Part shown: piece after piece, positions 16,218-30,488 of the stretch
Position numbering within the stretch: position 1 is the stretch's first letter
Layout: the number at the start of each line of letters is the position of its first letter
From: Spirogloea muscicola
Lineage: Eukaryota; Streptophyta; Zygnematophyceae; Spirogloeales; Spirogloeaceae
Direction of reading: 5' to 3'
NCBI GenBank assembly: GCA_009602725.1
Contig: WELB01000045.1
Span: 376,231-406,718, forward strand
DNA length: 30,488 bases
The notes under the pieces: generated by a model
The model's input: only the letters and a program-made list of their open reading frames with translations
The model's database searches: none
Told to the model about the DNA's origin: nothing
Made by a program: the position numbers and the translations under genes

Positions 16218-16540
16218 GGCGGGGAAGGCCAGGGCAAGAGAGGACGCTTTCCAGTGAAAGGCGGTGGCTGTGGAAAGGATGAACGAGGCCCAGAAAGGGC
16301 AGAAAGGCGCCAAAGCCACACAGCTGACAATAAGGGAGCTCTTCCAGAATTGGGCGGGGGTGCCGAAAGCCAGGACCACAAACAAAACAAGGAAAGAACG
16401 ATACCATGAACTAGGTCCAAAGGAGCCCGAAAACGTCGAGACCACTGAGGCACAGGCTATGCGTCTAGGTTTCGGGCAAGCCCGAAACCCTACTCCAAAA
16501 CCCATATCCTAACAAACTACTACTGTACGTCTAGAATAGA
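16218..16540. repeat. Repeat-like DNA upstream of the FPGS gene
   Basis: Blocks such as CCCAGAAAGGGCAGAAAGGCGCC and AGGTCCAAAGGAGCCCGAAAA recur in altered form at 530-560 and 26540-26610 (AGGTCCAATGGGCCGAAAGGCGCC). A family of dispersed elements distinct from the LINE tails is likely. A minus-strand frame stays open through it from 16505 into the FPGS first exon, but it looks like chance read-through. The FPGS promoter must lie in or just beyond this block. Confidence 0.5.
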
Positions 16541-16825
16541 GAAGTGGCACTCCGAATGGGGGCGAGGGCTGCGAAAAGCCAGCCCAAAAAGAATTCACAA
16601 AGGTGCAGAGGGGCCTAAGCCAGCCCCTCTTTCTTTATGGGCGAGCCTTTCCCCTAAGAGCGGTGAGCAGCTACAAAAAGAGAAGAAGTGGCACTCCCAA
16701 TGGGGGCAAGGGCTGCGAAAAGCCAGCCCAATAAGAATTCACAAAGGTTCAGAGGGGCCTAAGAGCGGTGAGCAGCTACAAAGGGGCCTGAGGATGCAAT
16801 GGTAAAACAGGGGGAGGATGGATCA
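16541..16825 (-). repeat. LINE 3' UTR, two tandem units (minus)
   Basis: In the minus direction, directly after the LINE stop codon: GATCCATCCTCCCCCTGTTTT, then the complete 130-bp unit (16810-16683) and a second, modified unit (16665-16541). The second unit has an inserted GCTCGCCCATAAAG / AGAGGGGCTGG block of the 4585/8125 type. This ties both tail block types and the left-edge array to the same element family. Confidence 0.8.
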
Positions 16826-16826
16826 C

Positions 16827-17861
16827 TCAATAAGTACGAGTGAGGAGCCTCAGATCCGACAGACTAGCTGCCGGGAAGCTATCACCCTGACGAAAGCCAG
16901 AGCCCGCAGCGAGAGCACGGCCAGCTCGCAGATGCAGAGCGTGGGCCATGGACCGCTGCAGGGATACAGAGAGGCGCATCCGATATAACTGAGCCCACGA
17001 GCCCGCGGCGTTGAAGTCGGCTGGCTCGCCGCGTCTGCGGGACACAGCCCGCCGCGCAAGCCTAGCCAATAGGTCAAGCCACTGGGACCCAAGAGCCCCG
17101 TGCACGTCCACCGCCAAGGGGACGAACTCGTCGGCAGGTGGGTGATCGGACTGCTTGGCCGCCTTGCAGCGAGCGGCCTTCGAGGCAGCGTGGCCGGCCC
17201 GCGAGGCAGAGAGCCCCAGGTTGGAGCGGTCGACCACATCGGTGGTGACTACATCGGCTATGATCCGCGCGCCACCTCCCGGCGTGGACGCCACCAGGTC
17301 CACACCACGCGTATGGTGTCCGTCAGCCCTCTCGAGGATGGGCATGACCGAGGCGTTCTCCATCGCTACCGTGTAGCCCGCCTCCTGAAAGATCCCGAAC
17401 ATAGCATCACGCAAGAGGTCGTGCGCAGCTGTTCGTCCGCCTCCAGTGGCGCAGCGGAGGAGATGCGCCGCCAGCTCCGCCGGGTCCGTCGACCGCTCCC
17501 CACATTCGCACTGCAGCACGCCCAGCAGGCAGGGCGGGGGGAGGCCCAGCAGGCGATGCGTGGCCGTGCGGAACAGCTCGTCCGGCAGCCTGAGCGCATC
17601 ATACAGTGGGAGCGCAGAGAGCCAGGCTGCCGCGCCGGGGGAGGCGGCCGACAGCAGCCGAGCACGGCCGCGCACGTCGCCTGCGGGGAGGAGCTGCAGC
17701 GTGTCCGTGAACGCCGCTTTGTCCACAGCAGCCATGTATCGCGCCTGCGCCTGCGAGTCGGAGGAAAAAGGAAAGAAAAGCCGTTGACCCGCCAGACGCC
17801 GTCGCAGGTGAAGAAGAAGGAACAGCTCTCCCAATGCTCTCGTGCTTATTGAGTGGTTCAT
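16827..17861 (-). mobile_element. LINE ORF C-terminal part: zinc knuckle plus restriction-like endonuclease region (344 codons)
   Basis: The open frame lacks the reverse transcriptase motifs but has the region that follows them in non-LTR retrotransposons. It reads ARLLSAASPGAAAWLSALPL and RLLGLPPP, a C-x-C...H-x3-C knuckle (C118, C120, H133, C137), then AHDLLRDAMFGIFQEAGY. RGVDLVA...IIADVV (about 186-206) resembles the PD-(D/E)xK core of restriction-like endonucleases in R2-clade LINEs. FVPLAVDVHGALG follows, then the C-terminus SLSDLRLLTRTY shared by all remnants in this window. It is a 5'-truncated copy, since nothing upstream (17862-18000) resembles reverse transcriptase. The ATG at 17861 may not be a real start. 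An element joining the endonuclease to an RT upstream would be the parent. Confidence 0.82.
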
Positions 17862-18015
17862 TACCCCACATCTGAGACGGCGCTTTTGGCTTGGATTGGC
17901 TTCGCCCGAGTGACATAATATTGGCTCGGCCAGGCCGCCTTCTCATGTCAATGCGTACCGCGCGACCCCTTCCCCTTCCAGAGCCGGCCAGCGCTCGCCC
18001 CGACGCTCGCCCTCC

Positions 18016-18876
18016 ATGGAGGGCCTGCCGGACGAGTGCCTGGCGGCGATCCTCGCCCGCGCCGCCTCGCCGCCCGCCCACGCCCCGCTCGGCGCCTCCG
18101 GCTGGCACCCGCTCGCGCACGTCTGCCGCCGCTGGCGCCGCCTGGTCAAGGCCTCCGTCACCGAGCTCGCACTGCGCGAGCGCAGGCAGCTCCGGGCACG
18201 GCAGGTGCCGTCGGTGCTCAAGAAGCGGGAGCTCGGCCCGGCGCTGGCCACAGCCTTCCCGAATCTCGCGCGGCTGCGCCTCACCGTCCACTTTTTCGCG
18301 ACGTTCTCCGACCTCCGCTCGCTGACGGCCGCCACTGCACTATCAGACCTGCGGGTCACCCTGCGGTCCAAGTGCCAACATCATGAACACATTCACGTAC
18401 AGGAAGAGCAGCTGATTGAGGGCCTAAACGATCGCGTTGCCCATGCACGGATCGTGCGGGGGCTGGTTCTCCAGCACCCCCCGGCCGTTCTGGTTCCCGT
18501 CATTGCCCAGCTCACGGTTCTTGAGAGCCTCTCCATGATTTCGTGCGACTTCTCTGGTAAGCTGCTACACTACTCTGTACTCCATGCTATGACCTAGATG
18601 CTTGCATTATGATGTGTTCGATACCTTGTTACTGCAGCGCAAATCCGCCTACCCTTCTTGTAAATAGTGGGCATTTGTTGGGCCGGTCTGATCGATAACG
18701 CCTTCTGCAGACGCGGACATCCAAAGTATCGTTGTTTCTTGCAAGCGTCTCACGGAGCTGGAGCTTGATATCTTCACGCGGCCCTCTAGATCTTTCACAG
18801 ATGCAGGACTTCTATACATCGCCAGCAATTTGCCGCAGCTACAATCGCTCCGCTTGACTGGCTGTGGGAACATCAC
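18016..18876 (+). CDS. F-box / leucine-rich repeat protein, 3' truncated at an N
   Basis: Exon 1 is 18016-18556 and exon 2 starts at 18711, with a GT-AG intron in phase 1. The protein opens with an F-box, MEGLPDECLAAILAR ... WHPLAHVCRRWRRLV (residues 1-50), which would bind Skp1 in an SCF ubiquitin ligase. Leucine-rich repeats follow: LARLRLTVHF, LTVLESLSMISCDFS, LTELELDIF, FTDAGLLYIASNLPQLQSLR, LTGCGNIT. The last are of the cysteine-containing type seen in F-box/LRR proteins. The coding sequence runs into the ambiguous base at 18877; beyond it the same frame soon stops and the opposite strand encodes a different gene. The substrate is unknown. The ATG at 18016 is chosen because the F-box starts immediately there. 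Confidence 0.8.
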
Positions 18877-18877
18877 N
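18877..18877. other. Ambiguous base N at a junction of two truncated genes
   Basis: A single N separates coding DNA of an F-box/LRR gene (+) from coding DNA of a bL36 gene (-). Both are cut within an exon, so the N probably marks a contig join or gap placeholder rather than a simple miscall. Confidence 0.7.
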
Positions 18878-18993
18878 AGGCCCTGGCGCTGCTTGTGCTT
18901 GGGGCTGGCGGAGCAGACGACGTAGACGCGGCTGCGGCGGCGCACGACGCGGCAGAACTCGCACAGCCGCTTCACGGACGCCCGCACCTTCAT
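18878..18993 (-). CDS. Organellar large-subunit ribosomal protein bL36, 3' end cut at an N
   Basis: On the minus strand from ATG 18993 the frame gives 38 residues: [20 protein letters not shown] ... [12 protein letters not shown]. This is the whole conserved bL36 core. The zinc-ribbon ligands C11, C14, C27 and H33 are all present. bL36 is a bacterial-type 50S protein, so a nuclear intron-era gene would serve mitochondria or plastids; the CEFCRVV variant looks mitochondrial to me. No targeting peptide precedes ATG 18993 in this exon; plant mitochondrial bL36 often lacks one or gains a C-terminal extension. The stop codon or an extension would lie beyond the N. Confidence 0.85.
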
Positions 18994-19208
18994 CGCCGGC
19001 GCCACCAAGGGAGAGAGCTCGGCAGCGCACAGTGCCAACGCGCTTTCACTTCAGCGCCGCGCCTGGCGGCGTCGGCGGCGGCGGCGGCGGCGGCGGCGGC
19101 ATCGGAGCCCGGCGTGGCGCTCGCTGAGGAAGCCCGCCAAGCCGTCGGCTGTGGCGGGCCTCCTACCCCCGCGCCGGTGCCGCGGGTCTGAGGGCTGTCG
19201 GGCCGGCC
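18994..19208. promoter_or_regulatory. Short divergent promoter region (bL36 / RRM gene)
   Basis: Only 215 bp separate the start codons of the divergent bL36 (-) and CFIm68-like (+) genes, so their promoters and 5' UTRs must overlap. The stretch is GC-rich and includes a GGC microsatellite at about 19070-19100. No TATA-like box is evident. If the N at 18877 is a misjoin, this side still belongs together. Confidence 0.5.
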
Positions 19209-21969: not shown

Positions 21970-22345
21970 TGAGAGAAGGCGCGCGGTTCGCATGATATTG
22001 AAAGGGAGGCCAATTCTAGCCTTACAGATGTCCTGGTAACGGAGTAACGAGTTGGCTAAGGGAAGCACTAATATCCTCGAGTGAGCACATACATATCTGA
22101 CAAGCTAAGCTGAGGAGCCAGACCACCACCATGGAATCCATTAGCCTGGCCTAATGCACGCCCGCCCAGCACGCTGGTGTATCACGAGTGCCAGGGAGCG
22201 CTGTAGTCTCAATGATAGCCGCATTCTATAGCAGGCAACGATAGTGTGCGGGACGCTAGAATGCCCTAAGCAGCCCGCCCGACTTTGTCGGCCGGTATCG
22301 ACATGCTGTGCCAGGCGACTAGGACTTGAACAACAAGTCGGACCC
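21970..22345 (-). mobile_element. LINE 3'-end remnant (minus), counterpart of 6745-7190
   Basis: The minus strand reads LAQHVDTGRQSRAGCLGHSS, then YRMRLSLRLQRSLALVIHQR. After a frame break, SDMYVLTRGY ends at about 22070. The tail TACCAGGACATCTGTAAGGC, AATTGGCCTCCCTTTCAATA and GCGCGCCTTCTCTC (to 21972) matches 7110-7190. Frame disruption shows a dead copy. Confidence 0.7.
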
Positions 22346-22588
22346 TGACATTGGTACCAGTAATTGGAACACTGAGAAGAAGTTAGGCGAATTCCCAGAA
22401 TAACCCAGGACCTGAAGAAGACTTGCGAAACTAAAGTGAGCAAGAAAACGTTTGCTTGTATGGTCAACAGTAAGATGTAATTTTTTAAGGGAACGTGGGC
22501 GGGACTTTTAGTCCCACACAATCTTATGTGGTTTAAGCGGGGAGGGCATGGCTGTTCACGGACTGCGCCAAATTGGCCACAGCCAGCC
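22346..22588. other. Downstream region of the EIN3-like gene
   Basis: No feature recognised. Part of it is probably the 3' UTR of the minus-strand EIN3-like gene that stops at 22589. Confidence 0.4.
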
Positions 22589-22840
22589 TCAGGAACCGAA
22601 GTACCATATGAGGTCCTCGTCCAGAAAGGTGTCGAGGCCACCACCAGGAATGAGGGCCCCCAAGCTGTCCATGCCAGCATTGACGACCATGGCTCCTGCC
22701 GGCCCACCGCTGCCGTCAAGCGCACCAAGGGGGGACGCCAGCTGGTTGGACTCTGGCGAGTGGAAATGCGGCTCATCAGCCAGCGGCTGCCGGGCATCTG
22801 GTGAACTCTCCCACGCCAACTCCATAAGGGCGGCCTCCGG

Positions 22841-22877
<37 letters not shown>

Positions 22878-24565
22878 TGCAGCTGGCGCTCAGTGCTGAC
22901 GCAGCCGTCTCCGCTGCCGCCACCGCCGCCCTCCTCCGCAGCCAGTGCCGGCACTCCCCTGTACAGTGGCTGCTTCAGCCTGAAGCTATCCAGGCCAGCT
23001 TCATAGCTTGGTTGCAGCTGCAACCCAGTGCCAGTGGCAGCACCATGTGGAGTGTGGTATGGCGCGCCAGCAACCTCGTGAGAAGCTTCCCCAAGCTGCA
23101 GCTGCTTGGGTGGCAGCAGCACCGCCAGGTCCACGCTGGCGCCAGGAAAGCCCGACTCACCAGCCGCCGATGCCCTCGCTTGCCACGGCTGGTGCGGTGC
23201 AGCTGGCGAAGGAGCCACGGGGTACGGCGCATACGTTTGCTGGTGGCCGAAGAAGCCCGGGCTGGTGGCATCGTGCAAGCTGCCACTGTACACGGCCAGA
23301 GGGTGCACGACAACGCCGCCGCCGCGGCCGCTAGCGCCGGCACCGTGGTTGTATGCTGGGTGCGGCGAGTGCAGCTGCTGCTGGAAGCTGCTGGCACCAT
23401 TGCCGGCCCGGTGCTCGGGGGCGTAAGGGCACGCGCTCTGGTGCGCTGCGCACGACGGCTGGTCTTGGAAGCTGCGGTGCCAGCTGTGGTGGGGGCAGCC
23501 CTCATGCGGGCACACAAACAGCAGCTGCTGATGGACCGTAGTCGCCACCGCTGGCCGGCTGGATGGAACCGCGCCCGTGAGAGCCGCCGCTGGACGAGCT
23601 CCTGGGACCCCCTGCGCCTGTGCTTGCACAGTGGCGCCGCCATCTGCGTGGGCTGTGGGTTGCCGCCGCTGCTCGCCGACCTGCATGACCCTCCCCAGCA
23701 GGACCTCTCGGCGCCGCTTCCCTGCCCTCTGTGCCTCTACGACCTCGGGTGCGGCAGACATTGGAGATGTTCCCCAGCCGTCCACCTGCTCCGCTGCCCC
23801 GCTGCTGGAGTTGCTGCTGCTGGCGGCAAGGTCCGCACTGCCGCTGCCAAGGGCCGCCGCACCGCCAACGTCATACTCATTGGGACTGTTGTCAGCCGTG
23901 CTGCTCTCGCCCTTGGGTGCTAAGATGACCGTCGACGCCGAGGGCTGCGGCCGGCGCCGTGCCGCGCTCGCCTCTTCCTGCTGCAGCACGGCCAGCCACG
24001 TGGCGCTCTCGCGTGCTGTCATCTTGTCCTGCGCAAACGAGCCATGGCCATCCTCTTTTGGCAACGGACCTGGCGAGCCACTCCAGAATGATATAAGTGC
24101 AATGGTTCTGCATTGCCTTTATTAGTAGGATAGCTGACACTCACCTGGAGGCACTTCGACTGGCGAACAAGGCGTCGGATGTTGGCTACGTCGGGCGACA
24201 TGTGCTTGATGACGGCGGTGAGGACGCAAACCTTCCACGCCTTCTTCAGGTCGTGCGGTTTGCGATATGGTGGCACCTCTTCTCCGGGCGCAAGACCGAG
24301 CTGTGCCCACCATGCAACGAGCCTCGGACGAATGTCAGCAGCCACTTGCATTCAAGCAATCAGATTTTGTGCCTGCCAAAGCAGACGCCACCGTTGGCTC
24401 AAAAGCCAATTGAGATGCTCGATTAGAGAAAAGCACCTCGCTCCACCAGCTCTCCCTGCCGGTGGGCCACCACGGTGGTGCCTGGCCCTTCTCCAGCGGG
24501 TAACGCCGTTGTGGCGGCTGGCAGTGCTGCATTAGTGCTGAGAGCAGAGATCCCAGAGTCGTGTC
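22589..24565 (-). CDS. EIN3/EIL-type transcription factor, 5' part missing
   Basis: Exons: 24565-24437 ([20 protein letters not shown] ... [11 protein letters not shown]), about 24344-24145 ([46 protein letters not shown]) and 24028-22589 ([15 protein letters not shown] onward, 479 aa). These blocks are the second half of the EIN3/EIL DNA-binding domain, a nuclear regulator that carries out ethylene responses in land plants. The last exon also has the family's Cys/His block, [14 protein letters not shown] ... HQSACPY, a glutamine run and an acidic end. The N-terminal half of the binding domain has no counterpart upstream; eRF3 exons are found there instead. The join of the first two exons is unclear: the obvious donor (24437) is phase 0 and the obvious acceptor (24345) needs phase 1. 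A weaker pair (24447/24322) keeps the frame. Confidence 0.85.
22838..22880 (-). repeat. CAG repeat encoding polyglutamine in the EIN3-like protein
   Basis: On the minus strand an almost pure CAG run with one CAA codes for about 14 Gln (with one Leu before) in the C-terminal half of the protein. Such runs are common in activation domains and length-variable. Confidence 0.9.
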
Positions 24566-24654
24566 CTGCAGAGGCCAGCCAACATTTCCACTACATCAAG
24601 GGAGCACCGGAAGGTGCGGCTCAGCAGATTTCCTGTGTCTCTCTCTGTGTCAGT

Positions 24655-24680
24655 CCCTCCCTCCCTCCCTCCCTCCCTCC
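24655..24680 (-). repeat. (GGGA)n microsatellite in the eRF3-EIN3 junction interval
   Basis: Six to seven units of CCCT on the plus strand (GGGA on minus), flanked by CA/GA-rich DNA. A longer run of the same motif in the opposite orientation lies at 25453-25486. Confidence 0.9.
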
Positions 24681-24742
24681 TGTCTCTGCTTCCCGTCCTG
24701 GCTCCCTCCTCTCCTCTCGTGTCTCTTTCACAAAGGTTTCAC

Positions 24743-26002
24743 CTTACCCTTCTTCAGATTGTACCCACACGACTTGAGGAAGGGCGTCATGCCGCCAACA
24801 ATCTCGTCGAATCTGCAAAACCCACCGATGGGTCTCAGATCCCATATCTCCAAGTAGAAGTGTGTAGGGGTGATGAGGTGGCCCACAAATTGGATGCATG
24901 GAACAGTTAGAGCCCTACCTCTCCTTGCTCCACTCCACAGACGCATCGTCCATCTTGTTCACAACGACGACGAGCTTGGAGACGCCGAGCGTCTTGGCGA
25001 GCTGCGCGTGCTCGCGCGTCTGCCCGCCGCGCTCGAACCCAGTCTCGAATTCTCCCCGCCGTGCCGCGATCACCTGAGTCGTCCCTCCGCCCATCCGTTG
25101 GCAGTTGTCAGCTCACAATGCCAGCTCTTTGTCAAAGATGGTGATAGTCCAATGCAACCGAAGGACAAGCAGCTGGTGGAGGCCCTTGGCCAAGTGTCTG
25201 AGAGCCTGACCAGGACGCCGACGTCGGCCTGCGACGCGCCGCTGATCATGTTCGGCACATAGTTCTTGTGTCCCTGCCAGCGCCGCAATGCAGCAAAAGG
25301 GAGGGAGTAAAGAAACGGGAGCATGAGAGTGGAGCAAGGAGAGTGGAGGGGGGTCATGGGAGGGAGGAGGAAGGAGGACGGAGGGAGGTGTGAGCCAGTA
25401 AGAGAGGTCAGCTTACGGTCAGAGCCACAGACAGACAGAGAGAGAGACAAAGAGGGAGGGAGGGAGGGAGGGAGGGAGGGAGGGGGAGAGAGAGAGAGAC
25501 CACGCCACATAACCGAAGGTGGCTGCAGCGGCTGTGGCCAAAAGATACACCGCTGGCAGGGAGGGCTGGCGCGCTACTCACGGGGCAGTCAAGGATGGTG
25601 TAGCGCCGGGCGGCGGTGCGGAAGTGCGCGCGCCCGACCTCCACGGTGATGCCCTTAGACCGCTCCTCCTCATTGGTGTCCATGATATATGCCATGTACC
25701 TATCGTAGCAGGGCAAGAAGAGGAGGGAGCAGAAGGAAGAGGAAGCACGGAGAGAGAAGAGGGGGGGGAGTGAGGAGAGGGGACACAGGAGACGTATGGC
25801 CGCTGCAGCAGTTGCTTGGGAAACACTGCACCGCCGCACATGAGTCGGCAGTGTCTTTGTCCTGGAGGCATGCCGGTGACGCTGGCTCACCAACTCTCGC
25901 GGTTCTTGTCCTTGGCCTCGCGCTCATACTTCTGGATTGTGCGCTCGTCCACCATGTCACTGAGGTACAGAATTTGCCCGCCAATGGTCGACTTGCCGGC
26001 GT
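24743..26002 (-). pseudogene. eRF3 (GSPT/SUP35-type translation termination GTPase), G-domain exons only
   Basis: Exons: 26002-25891, 25699-25582, 25273-25211, 25073-24919, 24812-24748, with matching phases. They read (D)AGKST (G1), YLSDMVDERTIQKYEREAK, the eRF3-specific MDTNEEERSKGITVEVG (G2), LDCPGHKNYVPNMISGASQ (G3), [24 protein letters not shown] (G4) and FDEIVGGMTPFLKSCGYN. This order separates eRF3 from EF-1A and HBS1. Missing are the exon giving the first half of G1 (no match in the 450 bp upstream, which includes an N), G5, and both beta-barrel domains, normally about 230 residues, needed to bind eRF1. The final exon ends at an AAGG|GTAAGG donor, and the next downstream exon belongs to EIN3. 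What is present shows no inactivating changes, so this could equally be two sides of assembly joins; called pseudogene because the gene is incomplete inside the window. Confidence 0.8.
25431..25499 (+). repeat. (GA)n-(GGGA)n-(GA)n microsatellite in an eRF3 intron
   Basis: ACAGACAGAGAGAGAGACAAA is followed by about eight GGGA units and then a GA run, within the intron between the second and third eRF3 exons (25581-25274). Confidence 0.9.
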
Positions 26003-26158
26003 CTGTGCCACCGCCACAGCAGACGCCAGACAGCGGCAGCACGACTTGGAGTGAGGTTGTAACAAAGGCAAAAGCGACCTCGCCAAGAAGACCAAGTGCA
26101 GGAGGAAAGCTGCAAAACAGGAGAACAAGAAGAAGGGGAGGGCAGAGAGAGAGGGAGG

Positions 26159-26159
26159 N
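26159..26159. other. Ambiguous base N upstream of the eRF3 fragment
   Basis: A single N in GAGGNCGGCGG at the edge of a CGG-rich tract. The eRF3 exon that should precede 26002 is not found on either side, so the N may mark a gap or join. Confidence 0.6.
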
Positions 26160-26400
26160 CGGCGGCGGCGGCGGCAGCGGCGGTCCCGCGGCGGGGCGGG
26201 GGGGCCGTGGGGGGTCCCGCGGTGCTCTGCACCTGGCCTCCTTCCCGGGGGGGGCCGAACCTGGCCTGTGAGAGCAAGCAGCCCACCGAACGGCCGCGCC
26301 GGGACGTGCTCGGGACGTCCCGTCCCGTTCGCTCGCCCCGTTTGGCACCCCTTGGGACGCACAACTCCAAACGGGTAACGAAAGCTCTTCCAAGCTCTAC
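26160..26400. other. Very GC-rich stretch, no gene recognised
   Basis: It starts with a CGG run and contains several G-runs of 6-8. Composition differs sharply from the purine-rich DNA left of the N. No protein or RNA family was recognised. Confidence 0.45.
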
Positions 26401-26402
26401 CA

Positions 26403-26960
26403 TTGGCCTCCCATTCAATTTTATGCGCAACGCGCGCCTTCTCTCTCTTCTAATCCAAGGCAATGGCTCCCAGCCACCAGTCAATTCGGCCGCGCTTCTC
26501 TCTTAAATGGCTGTAAGAAGGGAAAGAGCTCTATGAAAGCAAGGCAATGGTTGTGCGAGGCGAGCCCAAAGGAATGTACAAGGTCCAATGGGCCGAAAGG
26601 CGCCAAGATCACATTGCTATGCAAGAAACTACGCCGATGGGAGCTTAGTAAGCCCAAGTCAGCAGCCGCAAGTTGGAGACATGCAGCTGGAAAAGAGGCA
26701 CCCCGACGAGACCGGGAAGCAGCAGCCATGGCACGGCCTGCACGCAAGTGCACTGCGTGAGCCTGGGACCGCTGGAAAAGAGGCCGAGGCTGTGAGGGCG
26801 CACAGTGCGCATGGAATGAAAGAGAGGTTTGATTTAGCAATCCAGTCTCAATGCTGTTAAGGCAAAAGCTAGTGCAAAAAATTAAGAAACAGCTCTTCAA
26901 GGCAATGGCTGTGAGAGGCCGGCCCAAAGGCAAGGTCTGAAAGTGCTGGAAGGCGCAAAA
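26403..26960 (-). mobile_element. LINE debris: one plus tail and a minus ORF-end fragment
   Basis: 26403-26450 is a plus-strand tail motif (ATTGGCCTCCCATTCAATTT, GCGCAACGCGCGCC, CTTCTCTCT). 26850-26795 is a degenerate minus-strand tail (GCGCACTGTGCGCC). Between them, about 26790-26640 on the minus strand reads RSQAHAVHLRAGRAMAAASR and later LAAADLGLLS, the C-terminal LINE region without the LTRxY end. Blocks at 26530-26610 and 26890-26970 (CAAGGCAATGG...GGCCCAAAGG) are repeats of each other and of 16290-16430. Confidence 0.55.
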
Positions 26961-27202: not shown

Positions 27203-30200
27203 CTAGGCTTCCTTGTCCTTTGCATCAGCACCATTCAGACAGCCTCCTAAGAAGCCCTGGAAGTAATCCTGCGGCTCAGACACAAAGCAAGATATGATGT
27301 CTCGAAGAGTGACAACGCCTATCAGGCTGTTGTCGTCCCTCACTACGTGCACGCGGTGAATGTTTTTGGTCACCAGCCTTTCAATAACGTCAGCCAGTGT
27401 ATCCGTCTGCAAGCACGTAATGGGTGGTAATAGAAGTGGTGGCATGGCATCCTTTGATGGGTCAACAGGTAAACTTGAAACGATCTTTACAAAGTCCATC
27501 ACAGTCAACTCTCTGCACCCTCATCAGCCAAGAGAAGTGAAGGTCAGTGCTCAATCAGATGGCACTGCTTAACAACCTATCAACAGTTGATACAACTTTC
27601 CAAGAGCTGCCAGCTTCTTGTAGGGGAGAACAGATAGAAAGCGAAGAGCAGAAGTTGGATGGAAAAGTGAATAACAAGAGCTGGATGCAGATCTCAAATT
27701 TCAGAACTATTACTTTGATTGCAGACATGTCAAAGGCAGACTCCACAGAAGACAGACTGCAATGATGGGCTTCTCCATAAGCCCATCTGCTGGATGTGTT
27801 GAGGCCATCTCTTTCTCCAGCAATACTCACTTGCGACGAGCAAAGAGGTCTGGTTGGAGTAAAAGATAGCGCGAATCTCTGGTACTGATGTTCCCAATGA
27901 GCTTCTGGTGAGTATCGACCACTGGGATACCCCCAATCTCTTTCTCGCGCATCAATATGAATGCCTCCAGGACCAATTTGTCCCCCTCAACAGCAACAAC
28001 CTGCGCAACACAGTGACCAGTATCAGTGATGCTCAATTGTCATCTCCACTTGACGTTGCTTTAAGCTTTTGACATTTTCGTGACTTCACAGTGACCCTTC
28101 CATTTGCAACCAGCATGTAACGCTGCCCATCACAAGTCCTCCTTAACAGGAAACAGTATGGACACTGTTATCAAAGGACCACCTTCAGATCACAACCTAC
28201 AACCTTGAGCCGTTTGAAGCTCACCACTTACTGGCGACTGCTTGGCGCTAAAGCTGTAAACCTTACACCATGCAGTGGTTGTGGCATGTGCACTGTTGAG
28301 GAGAGGTAGATGCCTACCTGAGCTGGTGCCATAACTGGAAGTCCTAGGTCTTCAACAGCCCTGCTGGCTATGGAGTCAAACCACGCAAATCCCTTGCATT
28401 GTGCAAGGCCCCTGATTACTGATGATTGTGTCACCAGATTGTTTACCTGAAGATCATAGGCAGAGACTTCATCAAGTCAAGCAAAGCGGTACATTCACAG
28501 CCTTCAGCCAGATTGTACCACTGCACATTGCAGTGGTCCATGCAATTGTCAGTTGCTGCCATTGTTGCGCAGCCTGAGTATGATGCCGTGTAGCATGGAG
28601 TATCATCAGAATATGGGCAAGCCATTTTCTGAACTGGACCCTCAGCTCATGGCAGTTCAGGATCAGGCCATGATACTGTCCCAGTAGAGGTACAACTTTT
28701 GGGAGGTCTTGCCTGCGTGCTGTTGGAATCAATGACTGGAATGCTTCGAAGTCGATATTTGGAAAGCAGAAGCAAGGCTGTCAACATTGAATCATCTGCT
28801 TGCATTGGCAGGAAAGGGGCCCATCTGTAGCTTTTAGTGATATCTGAAACCTGACGGGACAACAGAAATCCATTCCCTTAGATTGCATGAAGAGGATGCA
28901 TGCCTAAGCAAAGAGCATATGTTATCCAACACAACATGCACTGACGATCATACACCATGTAAATGCTGCACATCTGCAGGCTTCCCTGCAGCTGCACACC
29001 TTAAATACAACTTGAGAGAACAGCTGACCAAGGGCGCCACTTTGTGCACCTTGGTTGACTTGAAGGGCTCTTCTCGAAGGATGACCTTGTAGAAGTCATT
29101 GCCCAATGCATCTGCCGCATGCTGAGGGTCTTGACCAACCCCACGTTCTGCTGCCACGCCCCCCGCTACGGCTGCCCCTACTGCAGCCACAGTGAGGCCT
29201 GCTACAGCAATAGGGCCAGTCATGCCCAGCGTCACAGCACCCAAAGCTCCCAGTGCTCCAGCTCCAACACCAGCCGCAGCTGCGGTGCCTGTGCAAAGTA
29301 AAGAGCAATCTTACTGAGCACTCATTTGCATCACCATAATCTCTCTGCTCAATGGCTGCAGAATGTAGCCAAGGTGTTCAGAGCGACTCTTGTTTAGGCC
29401 CAAGCAGCGGCAAAACCTTTCAACAAGTGCCTCTGGACGATCCTATATAAGAAAAGTGCCATACAAGACATCCCTATTGTACTTTCCATTGGATGCCATC
29501 TATGGATTGCAAAGCCAAAGCTCTACACAACTTTATCATGAAATTGAGAGGCCACAGTATAGTCTGTAGGGTCAACGACCTGCGGCAAGAGCAGCAGCTG
29601 CCAGCTCAGCTTGTTCTAGAACCCACACCACAACAGCAGGGAAGTCAACCATTCCTGCAGAGAGGACACTACCGCTTAGACCAGCATCCCTGCAACAAAA
29701 GCCGTCCAGCATTCTCGGCCACAAACGAGGGAGAGCTTGACGATTACGAAGCACTGGTGTTTGTGTAGAACAGGCTAGTCGCCGTATGTATATGAATCGT
29801 CTCCCAACTCGTGCCCACCATTGGGACAGCTTGTGTGCTCAACAACATTCATGCATTTGTTCTTCTACATGTATAACTGTGATAATCATTCTGCTCACCG
29901 AGGTATCGCTCCGTCCAGCTGGCACTTTCTGAAGCCGTCACGTCTCTCACAGGAGCAGACAAGACGTTGTTCTCGGAGAGAAGAACCACTGCCTCAGAGA
30001 TTGTCGCATCCGATGGGACCTCTACGACTACAGGAACAAGAGTCCACAAGTCATGCCTCTGAAACTCGTCCGAGAGCTACTACATGGACTCAAGCAGACT
30101 TGAACGACGACATGATTAGTATCAGCAAGGGAGCGCCTGACGCAAGCAGTCTCCACTTTATCGCTCTTTGCATGCAAATCTGTAGGTATCTGAAGCTCCG

Positions 30201-30448
30201 GGAGCGAGCCATGATGGGCGACGGGGTGCCAACAGTCGGGAGATAGCGCGGGATTGGCTCAGCAGAAGGCTCGAGGCCGGGCTTCACCCTTGCCGAGGTG
30301 CACGCTGGGGAAGGTGGAGACGGGGATCTTGGTGAAGGCGGAGTTGAGGAGCTGGTGCACCGCCGGCGGCACGCCGCGGCCGCCCTCGGCCCGGTGCTGG
30401 CTCCACAGCTCCTCGATGCGCTCCCGCACGCCCGCGCCGCCGTCGTCA

Positions 30449-30487
<39 letters not shown>

Positions 30488-30488
30488 C
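27203..30488 (-). CDS. SNF4 / AMPK-gamma-like protein with four CBS motifs, 5' partial
   Basis: Exons: >30488-30288, 30027-29899, 29654-29580, 29288-29050, 28850-28713, 28446-28318, 28000-27831, 27512-27203, in matching phases, at least 463 residues. CBS1: VVEVPSDATISEAV to SAPVRD and MVDFPAVVVWVLEQ. CBS2: WAPFLPMQADDSMLTALLLL to LRSIPVID, then LVTQSSVIRGLAQC. CBS3: LVLEAFILMREKEIGGIPVV, LIGNISTRD. CBS4: DTLADVIERLVTKNIHRVHV, GVVTLRDII. Pairs of CBS motifs bind adenosyl ligands; the layout matches plant SNF4-like gamma or PV42-type proteins, so a role with an SnRK1-type kinase is inferred. Exon 4 inserts about 50 Gly/Ala-rich hydrophobic residues (GVGAGALGALGAVTLGMTGP...) between CBS1 and CBS2. 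The intron 28712-28447 starts with GC. The start codon lies beyond the window edge. Confidence 0.9.
30452..30488. repeat. (CCG)n microsatellite at the right edge
   Basis: A CCG run (GGC on minus) lies in the 5' part of the CBS gene and would encode Gly in the coding frame or lie in the 5' UTR. It reaches the window end. Confidence 0.8.

Follow-up and report, generated by a model that had tools for sequence, protein, structure and literature searches.

An exact copy of eRF3 exons within an EIN3/EIL locus of Spirogloea muscicola most probably reflects a false gap fill

The stretch of Spirogloea muscicola DNA analyzed here, hereafter referred to as the window, spans 30,488 bases (C45:376231-406718) and contains two Ns, both single (26159 and 18877). 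On its minus strand, exons of an eRF3-type G domain run into an EIN3/EIL gene in the middle of its DNA-binding domain, an arrangement that the initial annotation had described and that our analysis recovered at the same coordinates. Further upstream on this strand lies a gene for a CBS-domain protein (27203..30488), which runs off the window and whose last exon matches the CBS domain (PF00571, E 5.3e-12).

Five eRF3 G-domain exons, all with GT..AG borders, were identified on the minus strand between 26002 and 24748. Exon 1 (25891..26002) starts at the Asp of the P-loop sequence DAGKST, with the codon of this Asp split, and is followed by exon 2 (25582..25699), exon 3 (25211..25273), exon 4 (24919..25073), which encodes NKMDD, and exon 5 (24748..24812), which ends at a phase-1 donor (AAGG|gtaagg) that is also found in the eRF3 gene on contig C47. 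Their translation comprises 171 residues (DAGKST...GYNLKK), and the six top matches of this sequence in the PDB were all eRF3 chains (E 5.9e-78 to 1.2e-70), followed in the same search by HBS1 (E 2.8e-53) and EF1A (E 9.1e-47). Comparison with the known eRF3 structures (PDB 4d61, 5lzt, and 1r5b) revealed that these 171 G-domain residues match nearly end to end, but the piece is a fragment that lacks the start of the protein, the G5 motif, and domains 2 and 3. Nothing precedes the P-loop residues DAGKST. In eRF3, the G5 motif lies just after GYNLKK, which is where the eRF3 piece of the window ends and EIN3 follows; neither this motif nor the two beta-barrel domains are present in the piece.

The first EIN3 exon present (24425..24565, minus strand, 3′ limit approximate) is native to the locus, collinear with the EIN3 loci on contigs C4 and C13, and covers positions 139-181 of the EIN3 DNA-binding domain (PF04873, E 8.1e-26). 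The remaining EIN3/EIL gene (22589..24315, minus strand, upper limit approximate) ends in a stop codon after ...EDLIWYFGS and supplies PF04873 positions 177-234 at C45:400372-400545; the DNA of the gene is 88.8% identical to C13 and 93.3% identical to C4. Thus, only positions 137-234 of the 252 in the domain are found at this locus, which retains the exon encoding DTTLGSLL and everything downstream of it, and, unlike C4, lacks the first half of the DNA-binding domain. In C4, about positions 46-99 are supplied by the EIN3 5′ exons (E 3.8e-32). The initial annotation had likewise described eRF3 as lacking G5 and both beta barrels and EIN3 as lacking its N-terminal half. A search of the assembly with the C4 DNA of these 5′ exons (861 bp) for the missing exons of the present copy returned a single match, C4 itself.

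The eRF3 and EIN3 exons are separated by 182 bp (24747-24566) that include a GGGA tract. The strong donor, AAGG|gtaagg, has its GT at 24747, and a second GT is found at 24742 (AAG|GTGAAA, after 24743), while the EIN3 exon starts at 24565, is preceded by ctgcag, and has an acceptor (ag|GACACGACT) that is also present in C4. Both candidate donors had been recognized in the initial annotation, together with the phase clash that we likewise found: the strong donor is in phase 1 and the acceptor in phase 0, and the two do not form a phase-compatible join. The description of this interval as one intron made of two halves also fits: the first part is a 5′ intron half from eRF3 and the second a 3′ intron half from EIN3, and the two meet in the GGGA tract.

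The origin of the eRF3 piece was traced by searches of the assembly (153 Mb in 471 contigs, from which short scaffolds may be absent). The published S. muscicola assembly is larger and more fragmented than this set, being given as 174 Mb in 17,449 pieces in the assembly figures of PMC9915684. When the eRF3 piece was searched against the assembly in six frames, 32 matches were obtained in total, including weaker EF-Tu-like paralogs; the set of exons was complete on C45, C47, and C46 and partial on C66. The window sequence from 24653 to 26158, which holds the five G-domain exons and their introns on the minus strand, is an exact copy of G000:C47:492677-494182 (L014:3178-4683), with 1506 of 1506 bases identical and no gaps, introns and microsatellite length included. 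Its identity to the other paralogs is lower: 95.9% in exons and 83.0% in introns for C46, and 95.4% and 84.8%, respectively, for C66, where only 819 bases were aligned (the exon limits behind these figures being approximate, within 8 bases). In terms of differences, 0 of 1506 bases in C47 compare with 4-5% of exon bases and 15-17% of intron bases in C46 and C66. The longest GGGA-type run measures 24 bases in both C45 and C47, 12 in C46, and 8 in C66; the equal length in C45 and C47 is what would be expected of a copy that has had no time to mutate.

On C47, the eRF3 gene continues on both sides of the copied block. Upstream lies its own intron, with an exon encoding NIVFIGHV further up, before the gene runs into a run of Ns; downstream follows an exon encoding DVQFLPISG, whose phase agrees with that of the AAGG|gtaagg donor (G|AT = D). 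Further exons on C47 match an EF-Tu-type domain 2 (E 7.2e-5 and 0.0016, below the Pfam curated cut-off) and an eEF1A-type C-terminal domain, that is, domain 3 (E 1.8e-11). A search for the missing exons elsewhere in the assembly, as proposed in the initial annotation, succeeded in part: the later eRF3 domains are encoded on C47, with further eRF3 copies on C46 and C66, and EIN3 5′ exons are encoded on C4, but the 5′ exons of this EIN3 copy were not found. The genome of S. muscicola is triplicated. With the foreign block left aside, the assembly holds three copies of EIN3 (C4, C13, and C45) and three of eRF3 (C46, C47, and C66). The number of EIN3 loci found here equals that of the S. muscicola EIN3/EIL proteins counted in PMC9136324, which gives three for this species.

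Both ends of the block fall within eRF3 introns, one at a gap mark and the other in a low-complexity GGGA tract. At the left edge, C47 departs from the window exactly at the lone N at 26159, the last identical base being 26158, and the two sides of this N match different loci: beyond it, the window continues into GC-rich DNA, whereas C47 continues into its own intron. At the right edge, the match to C47 stops at 24653, where a GGGA-type tract of 24 bases, followed by GGAC, comes to its end, while the homology of C13 and C4 to the EIN3 locus starts at 24680, the opposite end of the tract. This 28-base microsatellite (24653..24680, minus strand) consequently matches the eRF3 block as well as the EIN3 side of the junction. 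The initial annotation had pointed to a second, inverted run at 25453 as a possible partner of the GGGA run in recombination. We rejected this route, as the second run is part of an eRF3 intron within the copied block, and C47 has it in identical form.

The DNA on either side of the block is that of an ordinary EIN3 locus and is collinear with C13 at 81-89% identity. Immediately upstream, a native flank (about 26160..26342, minus strand) is 81% identical to C13:420052-420239, and the CBS-domain gene beyond it is a native neighbor, collinear with C13 and 86-87% identical to C13:410583-413931. On C13, the order is CBS gene, flank, 125 bp, a 1015-base run of Ns, GGGA repeats, and EIN3, so that the flanks of the block belong together, the CBS gene, flank, and EIN3 following one another in the same order on C13. 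On C4, the EIN3 5′ exons and VRFDRNGPAAMAQYQAE lead into a GGGA-rich stretch and then into the same DTTLGSLL exon; collinearity with C4 covers the EIN3 side only, since C4 reads N past its 5′ exons. As judged by the collinearity with C13 on both sides, the DNA flanking the block at either end belongs to the EIN3 locus, and the layout of C13 and C4 together indicates that the block sits in place of the EIN3 5′ exons. Runs of Ns in this genome can stand for withheld sequence as well as for gaps; the 1015-base run on C13 may mark an assembly gap, which would be supporting, though not decisive.

Control searches with native parts of the region gave a different picture from that of the block. The CBS region (27250-30300) returned three matches including itself, with C13 and C154 at 86%, and the body of the EIN3 gene (22300-24650) likewise returned three including itself, with C4 at 91% and C13 at 89%; neither had an exact match elsewhere. 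Overall, the native parts of the region differ by about 7-21% from C4 and C13. The corresponding genome search with the upstream flank was swamped by a dispersed repeat, the best 40 of 2884 candidates having been scored. The repeat lies at about 26517-26777 and is 80-88% identical in the best matches (again the best 40 of 2884 candidates).

These comparisons bear directly on whether two large, unrelated pieces of the genome were wrongly scaffolded at 24600-24750, rather than a gap being filled internally. Such an error would likewise place the junction at the microsatellite, but the CBS gene and flank on one side of the block and EIN3 on the other are collinear with a single contig, C13, where their order and orientation are the same. 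The large-scale order of the locus hence looks right, with only the 1.5-kb block being foreign, and a scaffolding error of this kind is extremely unlikely.

Judged from these sequence comparisons, the eRF3-EIN3 join is almost certainly a false gap fill, or local misassembly, and no real gene; the option of a misassembly, which the initial annotation had raised, is strongly supported. The observations behind this reading are the exact copy, the N at its edge, the microsatellite common to both loci, the native and collinear flanks, the continuation of eRF3 elsewhere, and the presence of the EIN3 5′ exons in a homoeolog. In the proposed sequence of events, this EIN3 copy would have been left unassembled in its 5′ part, which adjoins a GC-rich stretch. 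A gap-filling or contig-extension step may then have entered the GGGA microsatellite from the EIN3 side and exited it in the eRF3 locus of C47, where such a repeat closely follows an exon. The walk would have copied 1.5 kb of eRF3 and halted on reaching the far edge of the gap, with no overlap there, leaving the single N at 26159. In this account, the software step, the direction in which it walked, and an absence of spanning reads are inferred. A false fill would account for the exactness of the copy, its edges, the collinear flanks, the truncation of the genes on either side, and the phase mismatch, the last being explained by a donor that is eRF3's own phase-1 donor and an acceptor that belongs to EIN3.

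Real chimeric genes can arise by ectopic duplication; in these, the exons of two genes abut, some divergence is normal, and spanning reads are needed to establish them. The exons at the present locus abut likewise, but they show no divergence, and an N stands at one edge. A real and extremely recent duplication or ectopic conversion, in which 1.5 kb of eRF3 from C47 replaced the EIN3 5′ exons and left a dead EIN3 pseudogene, could draw on the fact that the block stands in the deposited sequence with its two ends in eRF3 introns, and the common microsatellite could have guided recombination. However, it would require that no mutation has occurred over 1506 bp, the length of the microsatellite included, and that one edge happened to coincide with an N, of which the 30,488 bases contain two. 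Moreover, at the two remaining EIN3 loci, the corresponding place is occupied by EIN3 5′ exons on C4 and reads N on C13. We thus regard a real duplication as very unlikely. If it were true, the transposed and unmutated eRF3 fragment would constitute a newborn chimeric locus, with one of three EIN3 homoeologs knocked out.

A functional eRF3-EIN3 fusion, spliced from 24743 to 24565, is a sub-case of such a duplication and presupposes it. The in-frame fusion through the weaker donor had been suggested in the initial annotation, and the frame arithmetic does permit an open frame, but beyond this arithmetic we found nothing in its favor. The product would have no eRF3 start, no residues before DAGKST, no G5 motif, neither of the beta barrels, and no first half of the EIN3 DNA-binding domain. 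Furthermore, the strong donor is eRF3's own and in phase with the next exon on C47, and on this ground the fusion by way of the 24743 donor was rejected; the probability that we assign to it is close to negligible.

The false filling of gaps in short-read assemblies is a type of error that has been discussed in connection with gap fillers, SOAPdenovo GapCloser among them (PMC9575681). The locus resembles errors of this type in that a foreign sequence is copied exactly, a residual N marks one edge and a low-complexity overlap the other, and the flanks are collinear with a homoeolog. In one table of the same paper, the changes in misassembly counts with GapCloser are small or negative, so that, as far as this table goes, frequent errors of this kind are not demonstrated in PMC9575681.

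Read as a false fill, the eRF3-EIN3 join would be without biological significance, and its use is that of a caution. Gene models built on this sequence could yield a spurious eRF3-EIN3 fusion, a spurious extra copy of eRF3, and a truncated EIN3 paralog, and both gene family counts and surveys of domain fusions in this organism could be misled. The signature can be screened for, as an exact copy of another locus whose edges coincide with a residual N and a microsatellite, between homoeologous flanks that belong together.

Lone Ns were further searched against the genome at five sites, namely 26159, 18877, and three more on C45 (the lone N on C13 at L026:3635 was left out). Exact foreign copies adjoin the N at two of the five, 26159 and 18877. 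At the three further sites, no exact copy of another locus was found next to the N among the best 40 of 119, all 5 of 5, and the best 40 of 2704 candidates, respectively; C13 DNA crosses the N at all three, and the C4 match ends near the N at two (7 bp before it and 20 bp after it). Given these three sites, the notion of a false fill at every lone N is not supported.

At 18877, the sequence to the left of the N (17900-18876, 977 bp) is identical to C60 and C117, that to the right (18878-19095, 218 bp) is identical to C68, and collinearity with C13 and C4 is broken from about 16273 to 19065. This site is possibly another false fill. The evidence is suggestive only, because the left side lies in a repeat family adjoining a high-copy one, where near-identity is expected; many diverged copies of 17900-18876 were found as well. 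The adjoining high-copy dispersed repeat (16679-17764) is represented on more than 30 contigs among the best 40 candidates, mostly at 97-99% identity with some copies at 88-90%, and looks like a recently active mobile element.

The searches also revealed several features of the other eRF3 copies. In C47, the start of the eRF3 exon that follows the copied block (ATGTGCAATTTCTGCC with its splice acceptor) occurs twice, at L014:4892 and 5055, 163 bp apart. The first copy soon departs from the eRF3 reading, which suggests a small tandem duplication within the intron. Runs of Ns precede the G-domain exons in each of the three other eRF3 copies, on C47 (L014:1-2231), C46 (L017:1-1228), and C66 (L018:1-2562), and these parallel the Ns beside the EIN3 5′ end in C4 and C13; GC-rich 5′ regions may be systematically missing from the assembly. 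Finally, among the weaker EF-Tu-like matches, a pair at G000:C6:766059-766647 and a pair at G000:C50:77168-77756 have identical scores and spacing and may represent another near-exact assembly duplicate.
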